From contig NZ_FNQM01000005.1 in the NCBI RefSeq assembly GCF_900107585.1, positions 1 through 64,000 on the forward strand: a DNA stretch of 64,000 nucleotides. Direction: 5' to 3'. The notes beneath the pieces were generated by a model. That model was not told the origin of the DNA and searched no databases. It saw nothing but the letters and a program-made list of their open reading frames with translations. The position numbers and the translations under genes were made by a program. This stretch comes from Rubrimonas cliftonensis. Lineage in GTDB: Bacteria > Pseudomonadota > Alphaproteobacteria > Rhodobacterales > Rhodobacteraceae. Positions 22,820-34,159 of this stretch are shown one piece after another (the stretch's first letter is position 1; each line of letters starts with the position of its first letter).

Positions 22820-22927
22820 ATGCCCATGACTGAAAGGCGGCGCCGCCGGACCGGCCCAGTCGGTCAGCCTTCGAAGAAGGGCTGCGCGCGACCGGTGGTT
22901 GCGCCCGATTCGCGGGCCCCGAAATGA
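22820..22927 (+). CDS. 35-codon leader ORF coupled to the chemoreceptor fusion gene
   Basis: An ORF of 35 codons begins at the ATG at 22820 with a good AGGGGAG box and ends with TGA at 22925-22927, overlapping the ATG of the fusion gene (ATGA). The peptide is very basic near its start ([10 protein letters not shown]), includes PSKKGC and ends DSRAPK; it resembles nothing I know. The downstream gene has no ribosome site of its own, so terminating ribosomes probably restart there. Whether the peptide has a function or only couples translation is unknown. A TTAACC (22757-22762) upstream is a possible CtrA half-site, weakly supported. Confidence 0.5.
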
Positions 22928-25023
22928 TTCGCTTCTCGCTGAGGCCCCGTGGCCCGCAGACTTCGCCCGTCGCGATGGCCGCCAGCGGCGTGGCGGCGCC
23001 CCGCGACGCCGTCCAGCCCGCCCCGCCCGCCGAGCCCGACCAGACGCAGGTGGACATCGAGCGCCTCGCCGGCGTGATGAAGTCGGTCGTGGACGGCGCC
23101 CTCGACACGCCGATGCCGAGGGCCGCCTCCGCCGACTTCGCGCCGCTTTATGCGCTGACCTCCGGGCTGATCAACCGCCTGCGGGAGACCCAGCAGCTTC
23201 TCGACGACCAGACCCTCTCGGAAGGCCTGGCCGAGCGCCGTCGCCGGGCCGAGGCGCGCGACACGGGCGACGTCTTCAACGGGACGGTCGCCAAGGCGCT
23301 GCGCCGCATCGAGGAGATGAGCGCCGCGTGCGCCGGCGCGACCGAGACGGCGACGGACGCCATCGACCAGATGAACACGCGCGCCGGCGAGATCGACTCC
23401 GCGGCGCGCCGCGTCGCGGACATGACCGCGTCGGCCGGCCAGCTTGTCCAGGAGGTCGCCGCAAGCTCGGACCGCGCCGCCGTCACCGCGTCTGACCTCA
23501 CCAGCGCCGCCAACCGCATCAACGACGTGACCGACCTGATCCAGAACATCGCCTTCCAGACCAACCTGCTGGCGCTGAACGCCTCCATCGAGGCGGCGCG
23601 CGCCGGCGACCACGGCAAGGGCTTCGCCGTCGTCGCGTCGGAGGTCCGCCAGCTCGCCAACCGGACGTCCAGCGCGACGACCGAGGTGCAGCAGATGGTG
23701 ACGGGCCTGCGCGATGTCGTCAGCCATGTGGAGACCATCGTCGACAAGCTGCGCGAATCGGGCGCGCGCCTCACGGAGACCACGGATGACGTCAGCCGCG
23801 CCGTGGAGGAGCAGTCCGTCGCGACGGCGCAGATCGGGACGAACGCCCGGCAGGGCGTGGAGAAAATGGGCGAGGTCCGCAGCCGCGTCAACGACATCGA
23901 GAAGAGCATCGTCGGGTTGGGGACGTCGGTCGACGTGTTCCTCGGCCGCCTCACCTCCGAACCCGGCGTCGCCGACGACGCGATCTTCTTCGGCCAGACG
24001 GCGCCGTTCATGGGGCCGCTGAAGACGACCGGCCAGGCCGTGCGGGACGGCATCCTGACGGCGTTCTCGCAGATCAACGACGAGGGCGGGGTCCACGGGC
24101 GCTCGCTGGAGCTCGTCGCGGAGGACGACAGCTACGACCCCAAGATCGCCGTGCGCAACGTCTGCGACATGCTGCGCGAAAGCCGCATCTTCGGCCTGCT
24201 CGGCCCGGTCGGCACGCCGACCTCGGCGATGACCGAGAAGGTCGCCCGCGGCGGAGAAGTCCCGTTCGTCGGCCCGCTGACCGGCGCCGCGTTCCTGCGC
24301 GACCCCGCGCTCGCGCATGTCGTCAACCTGCGCGCCAGCTACGACGAGGAGGTTGCCGCCCTCGTGAAGTCGCTTGTCCGTCTCAACGGCGTCAAGCGCT
24401 TCGGCCTGATGTTCCAGGGCGACGCCTTCGGACAGACGATCCGCGGCGCCCTGGGCCGGGCGCTGAAGGGGAGCGAGGCGACGCTCGTCGCCGAGGCCTC
24501 CTACCAGCGGTCCGACGGGGACATCGGACCCGCGACCGCCGCGCTCGCGGGCGTCGGCGCGGACGCGATCCTGCTCGGCGGCACGGCGGTCCCGTCGGCG
24601 GCATTCGTGCAGGCGATGCGCCGGGCTGGCTATGGCGGCCGCTTCGCCGCGATCTCGTTCAACAGCGGCCTCGACTTCGTCGCGGCGGCCGGCCCGGCGG
24701 GCGAAGGAACGCTCACCTCCCAGGTCGTGCCGCTGGTCGCGCCGGGTGCGGACGGCGTCGCCGGCGCCTTCCTTGCGGCCGGAGGGCGGGTGGGCGACCA
24801 CGCCGGGCTGGAGGGCTACATGATCGGCCGCTTCGTCACCGAGATTCTGGAGCGATGCGGCCCGAACCCGACGCGCGCCGACTTCCTGGCGGCGCTGCGC
24901 GGCGAAGCCGACACGGTGGAGATCGACGGCTACCCGCTCAAGATCGGGCCTGGCGCGCGGCAGGCGAGCGACCGCGTCTTCCTTGCGGAGCTTTCGTCCG
25001 GAGGCGTCAGGGCGGCCGCCTGA
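22924..25023 (+). CDS. Soluble chemoreceptor signalling domain fused to a periplasmic-binding-protein fold
   Basis: A 699-residue protein with unusual architecture. Residues about 1-40 are Pro/Ala-rich; about 45-345 are a methyl-accepting chemotaxis signalling coiled coil whose hairpin tip is canonical ([20 protein letters not shown] then [20 protein letters not shown]). Residues about 355-690 are a branched-chain amino-acid/amide type binding protein ([59 protein letters not shown]). No signal peptide, HAMP domain or membrane helix is present, so the binding fold should be cytoplasmic and attached C-terminally, the reverse of ordinary receptors. It probably talks to CheA/CheW. The start at 22924 lacks a ribosome site and seems coupled to the leader ORF. 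No chemotaxis genes are nearby; the next gene is a formate/nitrite channel. Confidence 0.88.
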
Positions 25024-25121: not shown

Positions 25122-26048
25122 ATGGTCGATTCGGATCGGAACGCGACGGCGCCGCAGGGCGCTCAGGAAACCATGCTCACGCCCTCGCAGATCGGCGACG
25201 CGCTCGTGGCCTCATGCGTGGCCAAGGCTTCGGCGTCGGCGCGCGCCACCTTCGCGCTCGGCGTGCTCGGCGGCGCCTTCATCGCCTTCGGCGGAGCGTT
25301 CTTCACCGCCGTGATGGTCGGTGCGGAGCCGGGCCTCGGCGCCGCCAGGATGCTGGGCGGTCTTGTGTTCTCCCTCGGCCTCGCGCTCGTGCTCGTCGCC
25401 GGCGCGGAGCTTTTCACCGGCAACGCCATGATGCTGCTGGCGGTTTGGCGCGGCGCAATGGGCGTGCTCCCGATGCTGCGCAACTGGGGCCTCGTTCTGG
25501 CTGGCAACGCCGCCGGCGCCCTCGCCGTAGTGGCGCTGATGAGCGCGGGAGGGCTCTTTTCCGGCGGGCACGGCGCCGTCGCCGCGGCGATCGCGGAGGG
25601 CAAGTTCGCCGAACCGACCTCGGTGGCGCTGGCGCGCGGGGTGATGTGCAACGTCCTCGTGTGTCTTGCGGTTTGGATGAGCCTGGCCACGCGCAACGCC
25701 ACCGGCAAGGTCGTCGCCGTGGCGCTGCCCGTGGCGGCCTTCATCACGATCGGCTTCGAGCACTCCGTCGCGAACCTCTACCTGCTGCCGGCGGGTCTGG
25801 TGAGCGGCGCGGCGGGCGGCTTGCCGGACCTGATGGGCAACCTGCCTGCAGTGCTCCTCGGCAACCTCGTGGGCGCGGGGCTCGTCGCCGGCCTCTACGC
25901 CTGGGCTCTGGACCCGTCGCCCGCCCCTGCAAGCGGCCGCAGGCCCGCCGCGCAGGCGATCCCGCAGGCCCGCCCGGGCATGCCGAGCCTCGCCGCGCCG
26001 CGGCCCGCTCCGGTGGCGAAGGCTGAGCCGACGGCGGCCCGTCACTAG
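25122..26048 (+). CDS. focA: Formate/nitrite transporter family channel
   Basis: Pentameric inner-membrane channel of the FNT family, which moves formate, nitrite or hydrosulfide. The 308-residue protein has six predicted membrane segments between about residues 45 and 265, with family motifs GGAFIAFGGAFF, AGAELFTGNAMM, GVMCNVLVCLAVWMS, and GFEHSVANLYLLPAG. A 40-residue Pro/Ala-rich cytosolic tail follows. The start at 25122 has a GGAGAG box; a CG-rich hairpin (25083-25102) precedes it. Formate is the end product of the glutathione pathway at the left of the window, but nitrite is equally possible. It lies 98 nt after the chemoreceptor fusion on the same strand. Confidence 0.88.
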   Translation: MVDSDRNATAPQGAQETMLTPSQIGDALVASCVAKASASARATFALGVLGGAFIAFGGAFFTAVMVGAEPGLGAARMLGGLVFSLGLALVLVAGAELFTGNAMMLLAVWRGAMGVLPMLRNWGLVLAGNAAGALAVVALMSAGGLFSGGHGAVAAAIAEGKFAEPTSVALARGVMCNVLVCLAVWMSLATRNATGKVVAVALPVAAFITIGFEHSVANLYLLPAGLVSGAAGGLPDLMGNLPAVLLGNLVGAGLVAGLYAWALDPSPAPASGRRPAAQAIPQARPGMPSLAAPRPAPVAKAEPTAARH

Positions 26049-26768: not shown

Positions 26769-27404
<636 letters not shown>

Positions 27405-27441
27405 GGCGGCGCGGCTCCTCGGCGCGTGTTCTTGGGGGAGA

Positions 27442-28089
27442 TCAGGTGCGGAACAGGCGCACGGCCTGCGTCTCGTGGCGCATGGCGGCGATGTCGGCGG
27501 CGAAGGCGGCGCCGCCGAGGTCGTCGAGCCCTGCGCCCGCCGCCTCCGCCGCGACGGCGGCGCAGAGCGGCGCCAGCGCGGCGAGCGCGCGCTGGCCCTC
27601 GGTCTGCCCGAGCGGGACGAGCCGCACGGCGACCGAGACGAGATTGGCGGCGAAGGCCTGCAGATAGAGCGTCAGGGCGGTCTCGAGCGGCGCGCCGGCC
27701 GCCGCGGCGGCGCGGCCCACCGCGACCGGATAGGGCGCCGGCCCGCCGTCTCCCGCCCCCCATGCCTGCGCCGTGGTGCGGGCGAAGGCGGCGCCCTGGG
27801 CCTCGGTCTCCAGCAGGCGTTCGCGGCTGACGGCCAGCGCCGCAGCCAGCTCCGCAGGTGCGAGGTCGTCGGGCGCGCGATGGGCCGCGGCGAGCAGGAT
27901 GGCGTCGTTGCGCCCGGAGCCCCGCGCCAGAACGTCGCCGACCCAGGCCTGCAGCGTCTGCGCGTCGCGCACCGCCCCGTCGGCGACGGCGCGCTCGAGG
28001 CCATGGGAATAGGCGAAGGCGCCCACGGGGTAGCCCGGCGAGAGCCAGGCGACGAGCGCCTGAACGGCGGCGGCGGAAGCGTCACTCAC
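27442..28089 (-). CDS. ureF: Urease accessory protein UreF
   Basis: All-helical scaffold that bridges UreG and UreD/H during nickel insertion into urease. The 215-residue protein has the family opening [20 protein letters not shown] and the core [26 protein letters not shown]. The start is taken as GTG at 28089, which gives the normal family N-terminus and overlaps the yrhK stop by 8 nt; a TTG five codons upstream is a weaker choice. It is in an operon with ureE, yrhK and ureG. Confidence 0.92.
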
Positions 28090-28363
28090 GGGCGCGGTCC
28101 GCAAGCCTGTCGATCTGGCCCCGGCGCCGGTCGCGCAGCTCGCGCGCGAGCCGCAGCGACGGCTTCGCCGCGAAGCACAGCGAGCCGATGAGAAACATCC
28201 ATATCCCCGCCGTTACGGTCGCCCCGTTGAAGAACAGGATCGAGCCGACGACGAAAAAGACCGCCGCGGCGAAGTCGACGACCGTGTAGGCGACCTCGAA
28301 CTCGGCATAGAGCCGGGCGCTCTCGGTGTCGCGGGTGCGGGCGTCGGGGTGGAACAGCCTCAT
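28082..28363 (-). CDS. YrhK-domain membrane protein in the urease accessory operon
   Basis: A 93-residue protein with two membrane segments (TVVDFAAAVFFVVGSILFF and TAGIWMFLIGSLCFAAKPS) and a basic C-terminal tail, matching the YrhK-like domain, function unknown. It overlaps ureE by 4 nt and ureF by 8 nt, so it is translated with them. Insertion of a YrhK gene between ureE and ureF is, as I recall, seen in other Rhodobacterales; a link to nickel or urea handling is guesswork. Confidence 0.75.
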   Translation of the reverse strand: MRLFHPDARTRDTESARLYAEFEVAYTVVDFAAAVFFVVGSILFFNGATVTAGIWMFLIGSLCFAAKPSLRLARELRDRRRGQIDRLADRARE

Positions 28364-28884
28364 GGGGCCGGCTCGCGCAGATGGGCGTTGGGGTCGGCGT
28401 GGGCGTCATGGCCGTGATGATGCGCGTGGGTGCGGCCGCGGCCATAGGCGCCGCCTTCGGGCGTGAAGGGCGCGGTCACGGGCGTCACGGTCGCGCCGAG
28501 CCCGGCGAGCATCGCCTCGATCACATGGTCCCGCCGGATCAGCAGGCGCCCGGCCTCGATGACGACGGGCAGGTGGCGGTTGCCGAGATGCCACGCCAGC
28601 CGCGCCAGCGCCTGCGGCGTCTCGGCCGCCACGGCCGTCAGCGGTTCGGGCGCGGCGCGCACGCGAACATGGCGGCCGTCCTCAAGCTGCAGCGCCGCGC
28701 CGTCGGGAAGTTCCGCCGCCTCCGGCAGGTCGAGCAGGAAGGGCAGGCCGTCATCGGTCGAGAGCGCAGCGCGCCGCCGCCATCTGCCGTCATGGTCAAG
28801 CGTCACGACGCCGGCGCAGGCGCCCGTGGCGCCGGTTTCGACCGCTATCGCCCTCAAGCCTTCGCCCATGCCCAGCTCCGTCAT
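28360..28884 (-). CDS. ureE: Urease nickel metallochaperone UreE
   Basis: Nickel-binding chaperone that supplies UreG. The 174-residue protein has an N-terminal peptide-binding barrel (RAIAVETGATGACAGVVTLDHDGR, FLLDLPEAAELPDGAALQLEDG), the metal-binding ferredoxin-like domain (LAWHLGNRHLPVVIEAGRLLIRRDHVIEAML) and a His-rich tail (THAHHHGHDAHADPNAH). An ATG at 28869 has a better ribosome box (GGAG) and may be the true start. It lies 61 nt downstream of lysR on the same strand, where ureC would normally be. Confidence 0.93.
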   Translation of the reverse strand: MTELGMGEGLRAIAVETGATGACAGVVTLDHDGRWRRRAALSTDDGLPFLLDLPEAAELPDGAALQLEDGRHVRVRAAPEPLTAVAAETPQALARLAWHLGNRHLPVVIEAGRLLIRRDHVIEAMLAGLGATVTPVTAPFTPEGGAYGRGRTHAHHHGHDAHADPNAHLREPAP

Positions 28885-28945
28885 GCAGCTTCGACGCCGG
28901 GGCGCAGGTTCGCCCGCCTGCGCCGCTTCGGCAAGGCGGTGCGGG

Positions 28946-29845
28946 TCAGCTTTCCGCCTCCGACAGTGCGCGGGCGAGCTGATCGGTGAATTTTGCGGCG
29001 GCCACCGGCAGCGTGCGCCCACGCAGCTGGCAGAGGTAGAGCAGCCCGGGCGCGAGGTCGCGGGCGTCGATGGCCCGCGCGACAAGCTCGCCGCGTTCCG
29101 GCGGCAGGCCGATGGGGATCTGGAAGGTCACCACCTGCTCCGCCAGCGCGTAGCACCGCAGGAACTCGAAGCTGCTCGACACCACCGCCGGCCTGAGCCT
29201 GACGCTGGAGCGCGCGAGCGCCGCGTCGAGCAGGTGGCGCACGCCGTAGGGAATGGTCGGCGCGGCCACCGGCCAGCGCAGGCACTCGCGCAGGCGCACC
29301 GGCCCGCGCCCGGCGGCGAGCGGATGATCCGCCGCCATCACCGCCATGACCGGCTGCGGCGCGGCGAGCAGCACCTGCACCTCCGCCAGCCGCACCGGCT
29401 CGAACACCAAGGCGATGTCGGCCTCATGCGCGACGAGCGCCTGCTCGGCCACGTCGCGGTCGCGCAATTCGACGCTGAAGGTGACGGCGGGGTGGCCGGC
29501 GCGATAGGCGGCGATGTGGCGGGGCAGGAAGAACGGCAGCAGCGCCTGGCTGCAGGCGATGGCGACATGGCCGCGCCGCTCGCCGGCGAGGTCGGCGATC
29601 TGGCTGCGGACCCGTTCCATATCGGCGACCTGGGCGCGGAAGTGGTGGATCACCAGCTCGCCCGCCGGGTTCAGCCGCACGCCCCTCGGCAGCCTCTCGA
29701 AGACGGGCGCGCCGAGCTCCGCCTCGAAGGCGAGGATGCGCCGGTTGAGTGCGGTGTGGGTGACGGCGAGCTGCTCGGCCGCCTTGCGGATCGAGCCGGC
29801 GCGCGCCACGGCGTCGATCGCCCGCAGCGTCGTCTGGTGTCGCAT
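28946..29845 (-). CDS. LysR-family transcriptional regulator
   Basis: A 299-residue regulator with an N-terminal winged HTH (LRAIDAVARAGSIRKAAEQLAVTHTALNRRILAFEAELGAPVFER) and a LysR substrate-binding domain. The start at 29845 is chosen for its CAGGAGA box. It is divergent from the BMP-type transporter and amidase operon, the usual place for a LysR regulator of that operon, with a GGTGCG/CGCACC inverted repeat in the shared 135-nt gap. Its effector is unknown; an amide such as biuret or formamide is a reasonable guess. ureE follows it on the same strand. Confidence 0.93.
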   Translation of the reverse strand: MRHQTTLRAIDAVARAGSIRKAAEQLAVTHTALNRRILAFEAELGAPVFERLPRGVRLNPAGELVIHHFRAQVADMERVRSQIADLAGERRGHVAIACSQALLPFFLPRHIAAYRAGHPAVTFSVELRDRDVAEQALVAHEADIALVFEPVRLAEVQVLLAAPQPVMAVMAADHPLAAGRGPVRLRECLRWPVAAPTIPYGVRHLLDAALARSSVRLRPAVVSSSFEFLRCYALAEQVVTFQIPIGLPPERGELVARAIDARDLAPGLLYLCQLRGRTLPVAAAKFTDQLARALSEAES

Positions 29846-29862
29846 GGCGTGTCTCCTGATGT

Positions 29863-29879
29863 GGTGCGTTTTTCGCACC
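29863..29879. promoter_or_regulatory. Inverted repeat in the lysR / transporter gap
   Basis: GGTGCG-TTTTT-CGCACC is a perfect 6-bp inverted repeat with a 5-nt AT spacer, 18 nt from the lysR start and 102 nt from the divergent binding-protein gene. Its size and place suit a LysR binding site, although it does not contain the standard T-N11-A core exactly. Confidence 0.4.
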
Positions 29880-29980
29880 GCTCCGGCGCGAGAATAGCAG
29901 ACGACATTTCCAGACGCCGCTCCCTAAGCTTTCCCGGAACGGAATCCGGCGCGGGCGCGCCGAGACGGGAGTTATCGGCG

Positions 29981-31102
29981 ATGACGATGTTCAAGGGCGC
30001 GGGCCGGCTCAGCCGGCGCGGCTTTCTCGGGGCGGGCGCGGGCGCCGCGGCGCTGGCGGCGGGGCTGCGCCCCGCGCACGCGGCGGGGCTGACGGTCGGC
30101 TTCATCTATGTCGGCCCGAAGGACGATTTCGGCTACAATCAGGCCCATGCCGAGGGCGCCGCGGCGGTCAAGGCGATGGCCGGCGTGACGGTCATCGAGG
30201 AGGAGAACGTCGCCGAGACCGTCGACGTCCAGAAGTCGATGGAGTCGATGATCCAGTTCGACGGCGCGTCGCTGCTGTTCCCGACCAGCTTCGGCTACTT
30301 CGACCCGCACATTCTGGCGCTGGCGCCGAAGCATCCCGACGTGCGGTTCCAGCACGCCGGGGGCCTGTGGAGCGCCGAGAAGCACCCCGCCAATGTCGGC
30401 TCCTATTTCGGCTACATCGGCATGGGGCAGTATCTCAACGGCGTCGTCGCCGGGCACATGAGCAAGACGAAGAAGCTCGGTTTCGTGGCCGCCAAGCCGA
30501 TCCCGCAGGTGCTGATGAACATCAACAGCTTCCTGCTGGGCGCGCGCTCGGTCGACCCGTCGATCACCTGCCAGGTGATCTTCACCGGCGAATGGTCGCT
30601 GGCGGTCAAGGAGGCCGAGGCGACCAACGCGCTCATCGACCAGGGCGCCGACGTGATCACCGCCCATGTCGACGGGCCGAAGGTGACGATGGAGACCGCC
30701 GCCGGGCGCGGCGCCTGGGTCTGCGGCTACCACGCCGACCAGACGGCGCTGGCGCCGGAAAAATACCTCACCGGGGCGGAGTGGAACTGGCCGGTGGTCT
30801 ACACCCGCATGGCGCAGACCATGCTCGACGGCGGGACCATCGACAATTTCGTGCGCGGCGGCCTCGCCGACGACTTCATCAAGATGAGCCCGCTCGGCCC
30901 CGCCGTGACTGACGCCGCGCGCGCCCAGTTCGAGGCGACGAAGGCCGAGATCATGAAGGGCGGCTTCGCTGCCATCAAGGGGCCGCTCATGAGCAACACA
31001 GGCGCGGTGGTCGCGGCCGCCGGCGAGGCGTTCGAGGAGACGGACGTGCGGCTTGAGAGCATGGACTACCTCGTGGAAGGCGTGATCGGCGCGACCTCGT
31101 GA
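29981..31102 (+). CDS. BMP-family ABC transporter substrate-binding protein
   Basis: Periplasmic binding protein of the Bmp/Med (nucleoside-type) family. The 373-residue precursor has a twin-arginine-like signal ([19 protein letters not shown]). The mature fold shows VGFIYVGPKDDFGYNQAHAEG, FPTSFGYFDPHILALA and GYHADQTALAPEKYLTGAEW. Members transport nucleosides or other small ligands; here the operon carries formamidase and biuret amidohydrolase, so an amide or ureide ligand is more likely. The start at 29981 has a GGGAG box. It overlaps the first permease by 4 nt (GTGA). Confidence 0.9.
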   Translation: MTMFKGAGRLSRRGFLGAGAGAAALAAGLRPAHAAGLTVGFIYVGPKDDFGYNQAHAEGAAAVKAMAGVTVIEEENVAETVDVQKSMESMIQFDGASLLFPTSFGYFDPHILALAPKHPDVRFQHAGGLWSAEKHPANVGSYFGYIGMGQYLNGVVAGHMSKTKKLGFVAAKPIPQVLMNINSFLLGARSVDPSITCQVIFTGEWSLAVKEAEATNALIDQGADVITAHVDGPKVTMETAAGRGAWVCGYHADQTALAPEKYLTGAEWNWPVVYTRMAQTMLDGGTIDNFVRGGLADDFIKMSPLGPAVTDAARAQFEATKAEIMKGGFAAIKGPLMSNTGAVVAAAGEAFEETDVRLESMDYLVEGVIGATS

Positions 31103-32208
31103 CCGACGCCGCCGCCTCCCGCGCCCTTGCGGCGCCCTCGGCGGAGGGAGCGCTCGCCGCCCTCGCCCGCCGGGCGGAGGCGGTGGCGATCCCGCTCGGC
31201 GCGCTGCTGGCGGGGGTGGCGGCGTTCAGCCTGTTTCTCGCCCTGCTCGGCCACTCCCCGGCGGAATTCTTCGCGTTGGTCTGGCGCGGCGGCTTCGGCA
31301 CGGCTTTCAGCTGGGAGAACACGCTGTCGCGCGCGGCGCCGCTGCTGCTGGCGGCGCTCTGCGTCGCGCTGCCGGCGCGGCTGGGGCTGGTGGTGATCGG
31401 CGGCGAGGGCGCCATCGTGCTCGGCGGGCTGGCCGCGGGCGCGACGGCGATGGTCGTCGGATGGGCCCCGGGCGCGCTCGGCCTGCCGCTGATGGCGCTG
31501 GCGGCGATGGCGGTGGGCGGCGCCTGGATCGGCGCGGTCGGCTGGCTGCGCCACCATCGCGGCGTCAACGAGACCATCGCCAGCCTGCTCATGGCCTACA
31601 TCGCCATCGCGCTGTTGAACCATCTCGTCGAGGGGCCGTTGCGCGACCCCGCCTCGCTCAACAAGCCCTCCACCCCGCCGCTGCCCGACTGGCTGCGCAT
31701 CGGCGAGATCCCCGGCGTCGGCGTCCATTGGGGGCTCGCCTTCGGCGCGCTGGCCTGCGTGCTGGCCTGGGTGCTGATCGAGCGCACGCGCTGGGGCTTC
31801 GCGGCGCGCATCGCCGGCGGCAACGTGCGCGCGGCGCAGTTGCAGGGCCTGCCGGTCGGCGCGCTGATCCTCGGCTTCACCGCGCTGGCCGGCGCCATGG
31901 CGGGGCTGGTGGGCTTCTTCGAGGTGGCGGCGGTGCACGGCGCGGCCAACGGCTCGCTGATCTCGGGCTACGGCTACGCCGGCATCCTCATCGCGTTTCT
32001 CGCGCGTCACAACCCGCTGGCGATCATCCCCGTGGCGGTGCTGGTCGGCGGGCTGGAGGCCTCCGGCGGGCTGGTGCAGCGGCGCATGGACCTGCCCGAC
32101 GCCACCGTTCTGGTGCTGGAGGGGATGGTGTTCGTCGCGATCCTGCTCGGCGAGACGCTCTATGGCCGCTTCCGAATGTTCCGCCCCGAGCTCTGGGGGC
32201 GCGCATGA
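31099..32208 (+). CDS. ABC transporter permease, BPD_transp_2 type (first)
   Basis: Inner-membrane permease of the nucleoside/branched-chain amino-acid type, pairing with the next gene. The 369-residue protein has about eight to ten hydrophobic segments from residue 30 on. Typical stretches are LGLVVIGGEGAIVLGGLAAG, NETIASLLMAYIAIALLNHLVEGP and the coupling region RIAGGNVRAAQLQGLPVG. GTG start at 31099 overlapping the binding-protein stop; the stop overlaps the next permease (ATGA). Confidence 0.92.
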   Translation: MTDAAASRALAAPSAEGALAALARRAEAVAIPLGALLAGVAAFSLFLALLGHSPAEFFALVWRGGFGTAFSWENTLSRAAPLLLAALCVALPARLGLVVIGGEGAIVLGGLAAGATAMVVGWAPGALGLPLMALAAMAVGGAWIGAVGWLRHHRGVNETIASLLMAYIAIALLNHLVEGPLRDPASLNKPSTPPLPDWLRIGEIPGVGVHWGLAFGALACVLAWVLIERTRWGFAARIAGGNVRAAQLQGLPVGALILGFTALAGAMAGLVGFFEVAAVHGAANGSLISGYGYAGILIAFLARHNPLAIIPVAVLVGGLEASGGLVQRRMDLPDATVLVLEGMVFVAILLGETLYGRFRMFRPELWGRA

Positions 32209-33131
32209 GCGAGACCGACCTCGGCCTCTGGGGCGTGCCGCTGGCGATGCTGGCCGGCGCCATCCGCGTCTCCACGCCCTTCCTGTTCGTCTCGCTGGGC
32301 GAATGCCTCACCGAGCGTTCGGGCCGCATCAACCTGGGGCTCGAGGGGACGCTCGTCTTCGGCGCGATGGCCGGCTACGCGATCGCCTACGAGACCGGCT
32401 CGCCTTGGCTTGGCGTGCTGGCGGCGGCTGTCTGCGGCGCGGGCTTCGGGCTGGCGCATGGCGCCATGTGCTCGCTGGCGCGGGTGAACGACATCGCCAT
32501 CGGCATCGCGCTGATGCTGCTGGGGATGGGCCTCGCCTTCTTCTTCGGCAAGCCCTACGTCCAGCCCGTCGCGCCGGACCTGCCGTCGATCCCGTTCGGC
32601 TTCTGGTCCGACATCCCCCAGCTGCGCGCGGCGCTCGACGTCAACGCGCTGTTTCTCGTCGGCGTGGCGCTGGCGCTGGCGATGGCGTGGATGTTCCGCG
32701 CGACGCGCATCGGCCTCGTGATCCGCGCGACCGGCGACGGGGCGGAGGCCGCGCGCGCGCTGGGCGTCGATCCGGTGCGGGTGCGGACGCTGGCGACGGC
32801 GGCGGGCGGCGCGCTGGCCGGCGTCGGCGGCGCCTATCTCTCGCTCTACTATCCCGGCTCGTGGAACGAGGGGATCAGTTCGGGTCAGGGCCTGATGGCT
32901 GTGGCGCTGGTGATCTTCGCGCGGTGGAAGCCGGTCAACTGCCTGTGGGCGGCGCTCCTGTTCGGCGGCGCCGGCGCGCTGGGGCCGGCGCTCCAGTCGG
33001 TCGGCGTGACGGGCGGCTACTACCTGTTCTACGCCGCCCCCTACGTCCTCACCCTCGGCCTGCTGATCGCCGCAAGCTCGCCCTCGCGCGCGCTGGCCGG
33101 CGCCCCGGCGGCCCTTGGCTTCAACCGATAG
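32205..33131 (+). CDS. ABC transporter permease, BPD_transp_2 type (second)
   Basis: Second permease of the BMP-type transporter. The 308-residue protein opens with a conserved segment (TPFLFVSLGECLTERSGRIN, then LGLEGTLVFGAMAGY) and has the cytoplasmic coupling loop RATGDGAEAARALGVDPVRVR followed by GGALAGVGGAYLSLYYPGSW. The start at 32205 overlaps the first permease by 4 nt. It is followed 11 nt later by the formamidase gene, so transport and hydrolysis genes share one transcript. Confidence 0.92.
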   Translation: MSETDLGLWGVPLAMLAGAIRVSTPFLFVSLGECLTERSGRINLGLEGTLVFGAMAGYAIAYETGSPWLGVLAAAVCGAGFGLAHGAMCSLARVNDIAIGIALMLLGMGLAFFFGKPYVQPVAPDLPSIPFGFWSDIPQLRAALDVNALFLVGVALALAMAWMFRATRIGLVIRATGDGAEAARALGVDPVRVRTLATAAGGALAGVGGAYLSLYYPGSWNEGISSGQGLMAVALVIFARWKPVNCLWAALLFGGAGALGPALQSVGVTGGYYLFYAAPYVLTLGLLIAASSPSRALAGAPAALGFNR

Positions 33132-33142
33132 GAGTGACGCCC

Positions 33143-34159
33143 ATGAGCGGCCTAGGCGGTCTCAACAAATCCCCTGACGGCGTGGTGCTGGGGATGGTTC
33201 AACTCCAGCTTCCCGTGGTGGAGACGCCCGAGCAGCTTGCGGCGCAGACCCGGCGCATCGTCGACATGGTCGCCAAGGCGCGGCGCAATCTGCCGACGAT
33301 GGACCTCGTGGTGTTCCCCGAATACGCCTTGCACGGCCTGTCGATGGACACCAACCCCGCCATCATGTGCCGCCGCGACGGACCCGAGACGGCGGCCTTC
33401 GCCAAGGCCTGCCGCGACAACGCCATCTGGGGCTGCTTCTCGATCATGGAGCTGAACCCGGGCGGGATGCCCTACAACGTCGGGCTGATCTACGACGACA
33501 GGGGCGAGGAGCGGCTCTACTACCGCAAGCTGCACCCCTGGGTTCCCGTCGAGCCGTGGGAGCCGGGCGACCTCGGCATTCCCGTGATCGACGGGCCGAA
33601 CGGCTGCAGGCTGGCGCTGATCATCTGCCATGACGGGATGTTCCCCGAGATGGCGCGCGAATGCGCCTACAAGGGCGCCGAGATCATGCTGCGCACGGCG
33701 GGCTACACCGCGCCGATCCGCGAGAGCTGGCGCTTCACCAACCAGGCCAACGCCTTCTGCAACCTGATGGTGACGGCCAACGTCTGCATGTGCGGCAGCG
33801 ACGGCACGTTCGACTCGATGGGCGAGGGGATGATCGTGAACTTCGACGGCTCGATCATCGCCCACGCCACCCAAGGGCGTCCAGACGAGATCATCACCGC
33901 AGAGGTGCGGCCCGACCTCGTGCGCGAGGCGCGGCTCGGCTGGGGGGTGGAGAACAACCTCTACCAGCTCGGCCATCGCGGCTATGTCGCGGTGAAGGGC
34001 GGCGCGCGGGACTGCCCCTACACCTACATGACCGACCTCGCCGCCGGCCGCTACCGCCTGCCCTATGAGGACGCCGTGAAGGTGAGCGACGGCACGTCCT
34101 GCGGCTTCCCCGCGCCGACGCGGCTATATGGCGAGACTAGGCTGGAGGCCGCGGAATGA
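33143..34159 (+). CDS. amiF: Formamidase AmiF (nitrilase superfamily)
   Basis: Hydrolyses formamide to formate and ammonia. The 338-residue protein matches AmiF rather than the broader aliphatic amidase AmiE: opening [22 protein letters not shown], then the triad Glu60 ([10 protein letters not shown]), Lys129 (YYRKLHPW) and Cys162 ([19 protein letters not shown]). The C-terminal part [20 protein letters not shown] is also typical. Ribosome box AGGAG before the start. It lies inside the transporter operon and overlaps biuH by 4 nt. The formate made could join the C1 pathway. Other short amides cannot be excluded as substrates. Confidence 0.92.

Follow-up and report, generated by a model that had tools for sequence, protein, structure and literature searches.

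As a rule, a binding protein and its chemoreceptor are separate molecules that come together on the outer side of the inner membrane. The locus analysed here raises the question of how the two come to appear as one chain, on the other side of that membrane and with the binding protein at the other terminus of the receptor, and of what such a protein could do. It lies in the window, by which we mean the whole stretch of 64,000 nucleotides of Rubrimonas cliftonensis DNA that was analysed. Our answer is that the gene probably codes for a soluble chemoreceptor carrying a captured exported sensory binding protein, which would sense a cytosolic solute and couple to CheA.

The sequence-only reading of this DNA had described a single reading frame of 699 residues in which a methyl-accepting chemotaxis protein (MCP) hairpin is followed by a binding-protein fold, and our data agree with it. 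The frame opens with an ATG at 22924, its stop codon ends at 25023, and Pfam placed both domains in one chain, in the expected order and far above their cut-offs: MCPsignal (PF00015) at residues 191-328 (107.9 bits against a cut-off of 34.6, 6.8e-31) and Peripla_BP_6 (PF13458) at residues 354-694 (151.8 bits against 31.7, 4.9e-44; profile positions 2-342 of 343). Both domains were also above cut-off in all six fusions of this layout that we found (see below). By sequence, the binding domain had its closest solved structures in 3lop and 4kv7 and the MCP half in Tsr (MCP I), and the best NCBIfam match was the Vibrio Aer2 model (E 2.3e-27), at only 95.6 bits against a cut-off of 1200. No in-frame start codon was found 5' of 22924, and because this start codon has no clear ribosome-binding site the exact N-terminus of the protein is unsure.

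Features of the fusion gene and its product, with positions in the window and the basis of each assignment
Feature	Residues	Position	Strand	Basis
Whole fusion gene, MCP hairpin then type I binding-protein domain	699 aa	22924..25023	+	ORF, Pfam, homologs
HAMP-like segment (doubtful)	40-90	23041..23193	+	McpB_HAMP_1st under cut-off; helix-loop-helix in model; Aer2 E 0.82
Long helix with N-terminal arm of hairpin	70-226	23131..23601	+	Model
Segment between HAMP-like part and hairpin	96-127	23209..23304	+	E100, G101, E104, R107, R108 and R112 invariant in six fusions
Conserved hairpin tip region	206-244	23539..23655	+	Pfam, alignment
C-terminal arm of hairpin, up to junction	232-344	23617..23955	+	Model
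Linker and junction (SEPGV...), equivalent to mature N-terminus of exported relatives	345-352	23956..23979	+	Alignment, model
Type I binding-protein domain	353-699	23980..25020	+	Pfam; model pLDDT 94.7; 4kv7 Z 46.4

It had also been stated that the protein lacks a signal peptide, a HAMP domain and any membrane helix. With regard to membrane and export segments this was borne out in the six fusions: in a Kyte-Doolittle scan, no 19-residue window reached a mean hydropathy of 1.7 (maximum 1.58, in the window protein), and no 12-residue window reached 1.7 within the first 60 residues (maximum 1.67, in the Poseidonocella protein, where it is interrupted by charged residues). The protein would then be located in the cytoplasm. 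The absence of HAMP, however, is not established, as McpB_HAMP_1st matched residues 40-88 of the window fusion at 22.9 bits, below its cut-off of 27; Pfam did not find this domain in the other five fusions. Additionally, an N-terminal profile of the six fusions retrieved one PDB chain, that of Aer2 (4i3m), at a non-significant E of 0.82, and hhalign against nine HAMP and four HAMP_2 domains gave weak probabilities of 3.5 and 8.0. The full-length model, which was built from six sequences and reached a pLDDT of only 65.9, shows helices at 40-56, 70-226 and 232-344 and the binding domain from 353 on, with a loop between the first helix and the long helix starting at 70.

Fusions of the same layout were found in five other genomes, namely G255, a Rhodobacteraceae MAG (L093, the same fusion protein as in G1024), a Rhodospirillum MAG (L094), Mangrovicoccus sp. 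HB161399 (L095) and Poseidonocella sp. HB161398 (L096), which argues for a real small family and not for an accident of a single genome. The six distinct proteins have 683-708 residues, depending on the start codons chosen, and the window protein is 34-39% identical to the other five (35% over residues 30-694 for the G255 fusion). Surveys that scored the two or three best candidates in each genome found the full fusion in two of 295 evenly drawn members of the family (the source genome of the window and G255); among 385 genomes at class level and 398 at phylum level, only that source genome had it. Of three genomes from the genus to which G255 belongs, two carry the fusion. A non-exhaustive scan of a contig collection, based on the junction and binding domain as aligned in three fusions and run as two short peptide patterns, returned 53 loci including four fusions (L093-L096), and a single-sequence scan of the same genome contig collection returned no relative. 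The three-fusion alignment had no relative in viral contigs, and none of 4374 matching plasmid records covered 80% of the fusion protein in one place. The best plasmid match, from Ruegeria TM1040, consists of two annotated genes and was discarded, as was L090, which aligned to some MCP columns and is a binding protein with an N-terminal extension. In three Desulfovibrio-type binding proteins (L111, L112 and L113), a long Ala/Pro/Gly/Ser-rich region precedes the binding domain.

The existence of five homologs with the same junction excludes in practice a frameshift or an assembly error as the origin of the join, and this origin was rejected. More generally, it is extremely improbable that the protein is exported or membrane-bound through a signal that was missed, or that it is an artefact of a frameshift, of assembly or of chance fusion: the unclear ribosome-binding site and the unsure N-terminus leave some room for this, but the six homologs have no hydrophobic segment, no upstream in-frame start is available, the junction is the same in six genomes and the dN/dS values given below are low in two pairs.

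The C-terminal domain had been read as a type I binding fold, and structure prediction confirmed that the fold is complete and two-lobed. Modelled alone from 45 sequences, the domain reached a pLDDT of 94.7 and superposed on 4kv7 with a Z of 46.4 and an rmsd of 1.9 over 343 residues. Further structural matches were 3lop (Z 45.8) and leucine-, aromatic-acid- and urea-binding proteins, and AmiC was also retrieved (1pea, Z 37.1; 1qnl, Z 37.0) at 17-18% identity.

The origin of this domain is indicated by its junction and by its free relatives, which are about 28-41% identical to it and mostly exported single-domain proteins. The junction reads (S/A)EPG(V/I) in the alignment of the six fusions, whereas the free relative L023 reads AEPGVSDDAVMFGQ right after its signal peptide, with related forms in other free proteins; since the junction motif thus corresponds to the mature N-terminus of the free relatives, the mature protein appears to have been joined directly to the end of the hairpin. 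By a crude test, a signal-peptide-like segment was present in 33 of 39 free proteins and in none of the six fusions, and some of the six free proteins failing the test look wrongly started. We also inspected the surroundings of 20 free loci with sufficient flanking sequence, 19 of them picked from the top search matches (L057-L075) plus L089. A sensor gene directly adjoins the binding-protein gene in 18 of these, at gaps of -134 to 163 bases, and the sensors comprise 12 MCPs, four histidine kinases, one CHASE-GGDEF-EAL protein and one guanylate-cyclase protein (14 of the 18 typed by Pfam and L063, L070, L074 and L075 by sequence motif only; in L059 the binding protein was placed by search match). 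The remaining two, L060 and L064, have no adjoining sensor, their neighbours being a PBP-OmpA protein and a DUF4175 protein. Of 14 partners scanned, two matched the TorS sensor domain (TorS_sensor_domain, PF21689) above its cut-off and another two did so at a score under it. In many sensor partners, no Pfam model matched the input domain over cut-off. Because sensors adjoin these genes and some partners match the TorS sensor domain, we named the free relatives TorT-like sensory binding proteins. The mature-type start together with the sensory nature of the nearest relatives makes the C-terminal half of the fusion look like a captured TorT-like sensory binding protein without its signal peptide. 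G1023, a genome that shares its genus with two fusion carriers, has a two-gene version with a binding protein beside an MCP (L089), although in the tree this binding protein is not the one closest to the fusions.

The captured domain differs from the free proteins at conserved positions. Near-invariant glycines at 506 and 509 were lost in all six fusions, together with a near-invariant tyrosine at position 555, now Ala or Pro, which we take to lie within the loop that carries the ligand-contacting tyrosine in leucine-binding protein. Among the moderately conserved columns, the window protein keeps the fewest, 32 of 61, and the other fusions 37-40. As far as alignments can tell, the three losses shared by all six fusions suggest an altered pocket or a lost docking face, and they could mean a changed or weakened site. 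They would also fit a binding domain that no longer senses any solute and has been retained to mediate protein interaction or positioning, for instance at a transporter, an enzyme or the cell pole, the signal coming instead from the N-terminal segment, whose six invariant charged or glycine positions are a possible second input. In line with such a role, the part of the literature available on the Helicobacter pylori receptor TlpD reports that its polar localisation needs an intact C-terminus (PMC13001251). We nevertheless consider loss of sensing quite unlikely, given that the fusions keep 34-37 of the 42 columns that are at least 95% conserved in 39 free proteins, including GTPT (430-433) and TG (453-454), and that the binding domain evolves under low dN/dS. 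In the two closest fusion pairs the binding domain has ratios of 0.24 and 0.15, the MCP half 0.30 and 0.11 and the N-terminal part 0.35 and 0.46; these values have no confidence limits and include one with a dS of 1.39, synonymous changes being near saturation in the second pair.

Phylogenetic analysis showed a common origin of the six binding domains, which form one clade in an 84-row tree (SH-aLRT 100) and still do so, again at 100, when the window row is left out and five remain; two fusions have an odd letter make-up in this tree. The MCP halves also form one clade in a 50-row tree, at a support of 87, which becomes 83 on removal of the Rhodospirillum row; removal of the window row, however, leaves five MCP halves that need two changes and make no single clade, so that a single origin of the MCP half is only weakly indicated. 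Both are quick trees with long-branch warnings, from which near-identical, short and weak rows had been dropped, and the window protein sits on long end branches in both as a diverged member. With the MCP half alone as query, all other fusions except that of G255 ranked right behind it, and the G255 fusion came after three receptors of the Rhodospirillum MAG. For the MCP half, the simplest reading would be a single fusion event that then spread; its replacement by another MCP half or a second fusion event may have occurred instead. Furthermore, the MCP half is placed among receptors from other alphaproteobacteria, apart from most of those of Rhodobacteraceae. MCPs paired with free binding proteins occur in the fusions' half of this tree (L069, L072 and L073) and in the other half (L058, L059, L063, L071, L074, L075 and L166), and the MCP half may derive from an MCP of the kind usually paired with these binding proteins.

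On the signalling side, the kinase-contact tip is conserved in the alignment of all six fusions. The canonical methylation motif, searched as [ASTG]2xx[EQ]2xx[ASTG]2 at 70-120 residues from the tip, was found in none of them and in 20 of 24 other MCPs (25 controls minus one without a readable tip; one of the 24 is a 171-residue fragment without the motif), and a looser form in one fusion, that of Rhodospirillum, and in 21 of the 24. Six of nine controls in the fusions' half of the MCP tree have the strict motif. The six fusions may still have atypical methylation sites, and a missing motif does not exclude an MCP, because TlpD too is reported, in the portion of its description available, to be without such sites. 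In addition, the usual docking tail for CheR and CheB is absent, since the C-terminus is occupied by the binding domain. The C-terminal arm of the window fusion aligns as 7 residues shorter than that of Tsr, and an EQ landmark lies 68 residues from the tip in two of the six fusions, whereas in the MCPs of the opposite half of the tree it lies at 75 in 23 of 33 and at 68 in 2 of 33.

The window genome can in principle perform chemotaxis, as it has matches for one CheA dimerisation domain, two CheR and four flagellins; it also has eleven Peripla_BP_6 matches, ten of them over cut-off, one being the fusion gene itself. The fusion would couple to this one CheA. Alternatively, it could be a ligand sensor that does not act on flagellar chemotaxis via the CheA of this genome, working in a separate or uncoupled array, a proposal that draws on the shorter arm, the displaced EQ landmark, the missing canonical methylation motif and the grouping of the MCP half away from most receptors of the family. 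We think it unlikely because the tip that contacts the kinase is conserved throughout and, with only one CheA dimerisation domain found in the genome, no second kinase is in view. The fusion receptor may not mix with the other receptors of its host.

The gene neighbourhood was no guide to the ligand, as the neighbours of the fusions vary. The window gene stands between a NUDIX gene upstream and, 98 bases downstream on the same strand, a gene for a formate/nitrite transporter (FNT; 25122-26048, +). No FNT relative was found by tblastn in the stretches around the other five fusions, and a link to formate or nitrite, which would have had this downstream gene as its only basis, was not adopted. 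The scanned neighbours of the other five code for pirin, a peptidoglycan-binding protein, radical SAM, LytTR, thioesterase and LysR proteins or have no Pfam match; the pirin gene recurs within the pair G255/SP126 and the others are unrelated to one another. Neither a partner ABC permease or ATPase nor a flanking sensor gene was present at the window gene or among these scanned neighbours, the permease at 31102-32205 standing together with a Bmp-type binding protein at a distance of about 5-6 kb. The region 26769-34159 of the window contains a CobW/HypB/UreG-family GTPase (-) followed by plus-strand genes for a Bmp-type binding protein, a permease and a carbon-nitrogen hydrolase, a possible nitrogen-compound cluster.

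All these data leave the receptor proposed at the outset, membrane-free and with a captured binding protein at its C-terminus, as a layout well supported by six genomes, one binding-domain clade, a junction of the mature N-terminus type, an intact predicted fold and low dN/dS. As for its working, two chains would pair through the long MCP hairpin, the tip of which would contact CheW and CheA, and the C-terminal hairpin helix (to about residue 344) would continue through a short linker into the two-lobed domain. The ancestor of the latter would be an exported sensory binding protein, of a type whose gene usually adjoins that of a transmembrane sensor, and fusion to the MCP with loss of the signal peptide would have moved the domain to the cytoplasm. 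Closure of the lobes on a small cytosolic solute could then shift the C-terminal helix ends against the N-terminal helices, with the C-terminal helices perhaps pressing on the HAMP-like segment, and this shift would change kinase control at the hairpin tip. Generalised to the group, the proposal becomes more tentative, and we give it slightly less than an even chance: a cytoplasmic family would have arisen by capture of a TorT-like protein at the C-terminal end of the hairpin, with its signal peptide lost and its docking face or pocket changed, and would read an internal metabolite, the C-terminal helix relaying the signal inwards in the absence of the usual methylation sites.

If the soluble receptor works in this way, it would offer a natural test of how a clam-shell domain with a well-understood closing motion can drive a hairpin receptor from the C-terminal helix, as well as a compact model for taxis on internal metabolites. 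The analysis further suggests that, in alphaproteobacteria, exported sensory binding proteins paired with MCPs, kinases and second-messenger enzymes encoded next to them form a larger set.

With regard to precedents, no description of MCPsignal together with Peripla_BP_6 was found in the literature searched, mostly in non-subscription journals, so that a database entry or a mention in other sources may exist. Publications naming both Peripla_BP and MCPsignal contain, in their available parts, no description of the fusion layout; one of them, in the portion available, lists Peripla_BP_5 as a ligand-binding domain cluster of one sequence (PMC8547431).

The exported relatives of the binding domain recall pairs of the TorT/TorS type, in which an exported type I binding protein works with a transmembrane sensor. 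As there, the nearest free relatives adjoin sensors, most often MCPs (12 of 20 loci), but in TorT/TorS two proteins meet outside the membrane, whereas the fusion is one chain with no membrane part. A type I binding-protein fold inside the cell has its counterpart in AmiC of Pseudomonas aeruginosa, which works in the cytoplasm, senses a small molecule and controls an antiterminator; unlike the fusion, AmiC is a separate protein and is not joined to an MCP. Among membrane-free receptors, Aer2 carries poly-HAMP and a haem PAS domain before its hairpin and, in contrast to the fusion, no binding protein behind it. This membrane-free character is shared not only with Aer2/McpB but, as far as the available part of the report goes, with TlpT and TlpC of Rhodobacter sphaeroides, which are cytoplasmic receptors (PMC3964821).

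The nearest parallel in domain order is TlpD, described in the accessible portion of the source as a soluble receptor whose C-terminal CZB domain acts on the hairpin (PMC12871147). Judged from that portion, both proteins are soluble, have the sensor domain after the hairpin and are without the usual methylation sites; they differ in that TlpD has a small zinc-binding helical CZB domain and an N-terminal PAS domain, where the fusion has a type I domain of about 350 residues with two lobes, akin to exported proteins, and the doubtful HAMP-like segment. The sequence-only reading had held that both the order of domains and the compartment are reversed from the usual receptor. The reversed order was indeed seen and the reversed compartment is the probable reading, but neither is unique, given the C-terminal sensor reported for TlpD and the cytoplasmic fold of AmiC. 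Membrane-free receptors, C-terminal sensors and cytoplasmic type I folds are each known singly, and what appears new, within the literature searched, is their combination in a receptor related to periplasmic sensory binding proteins.
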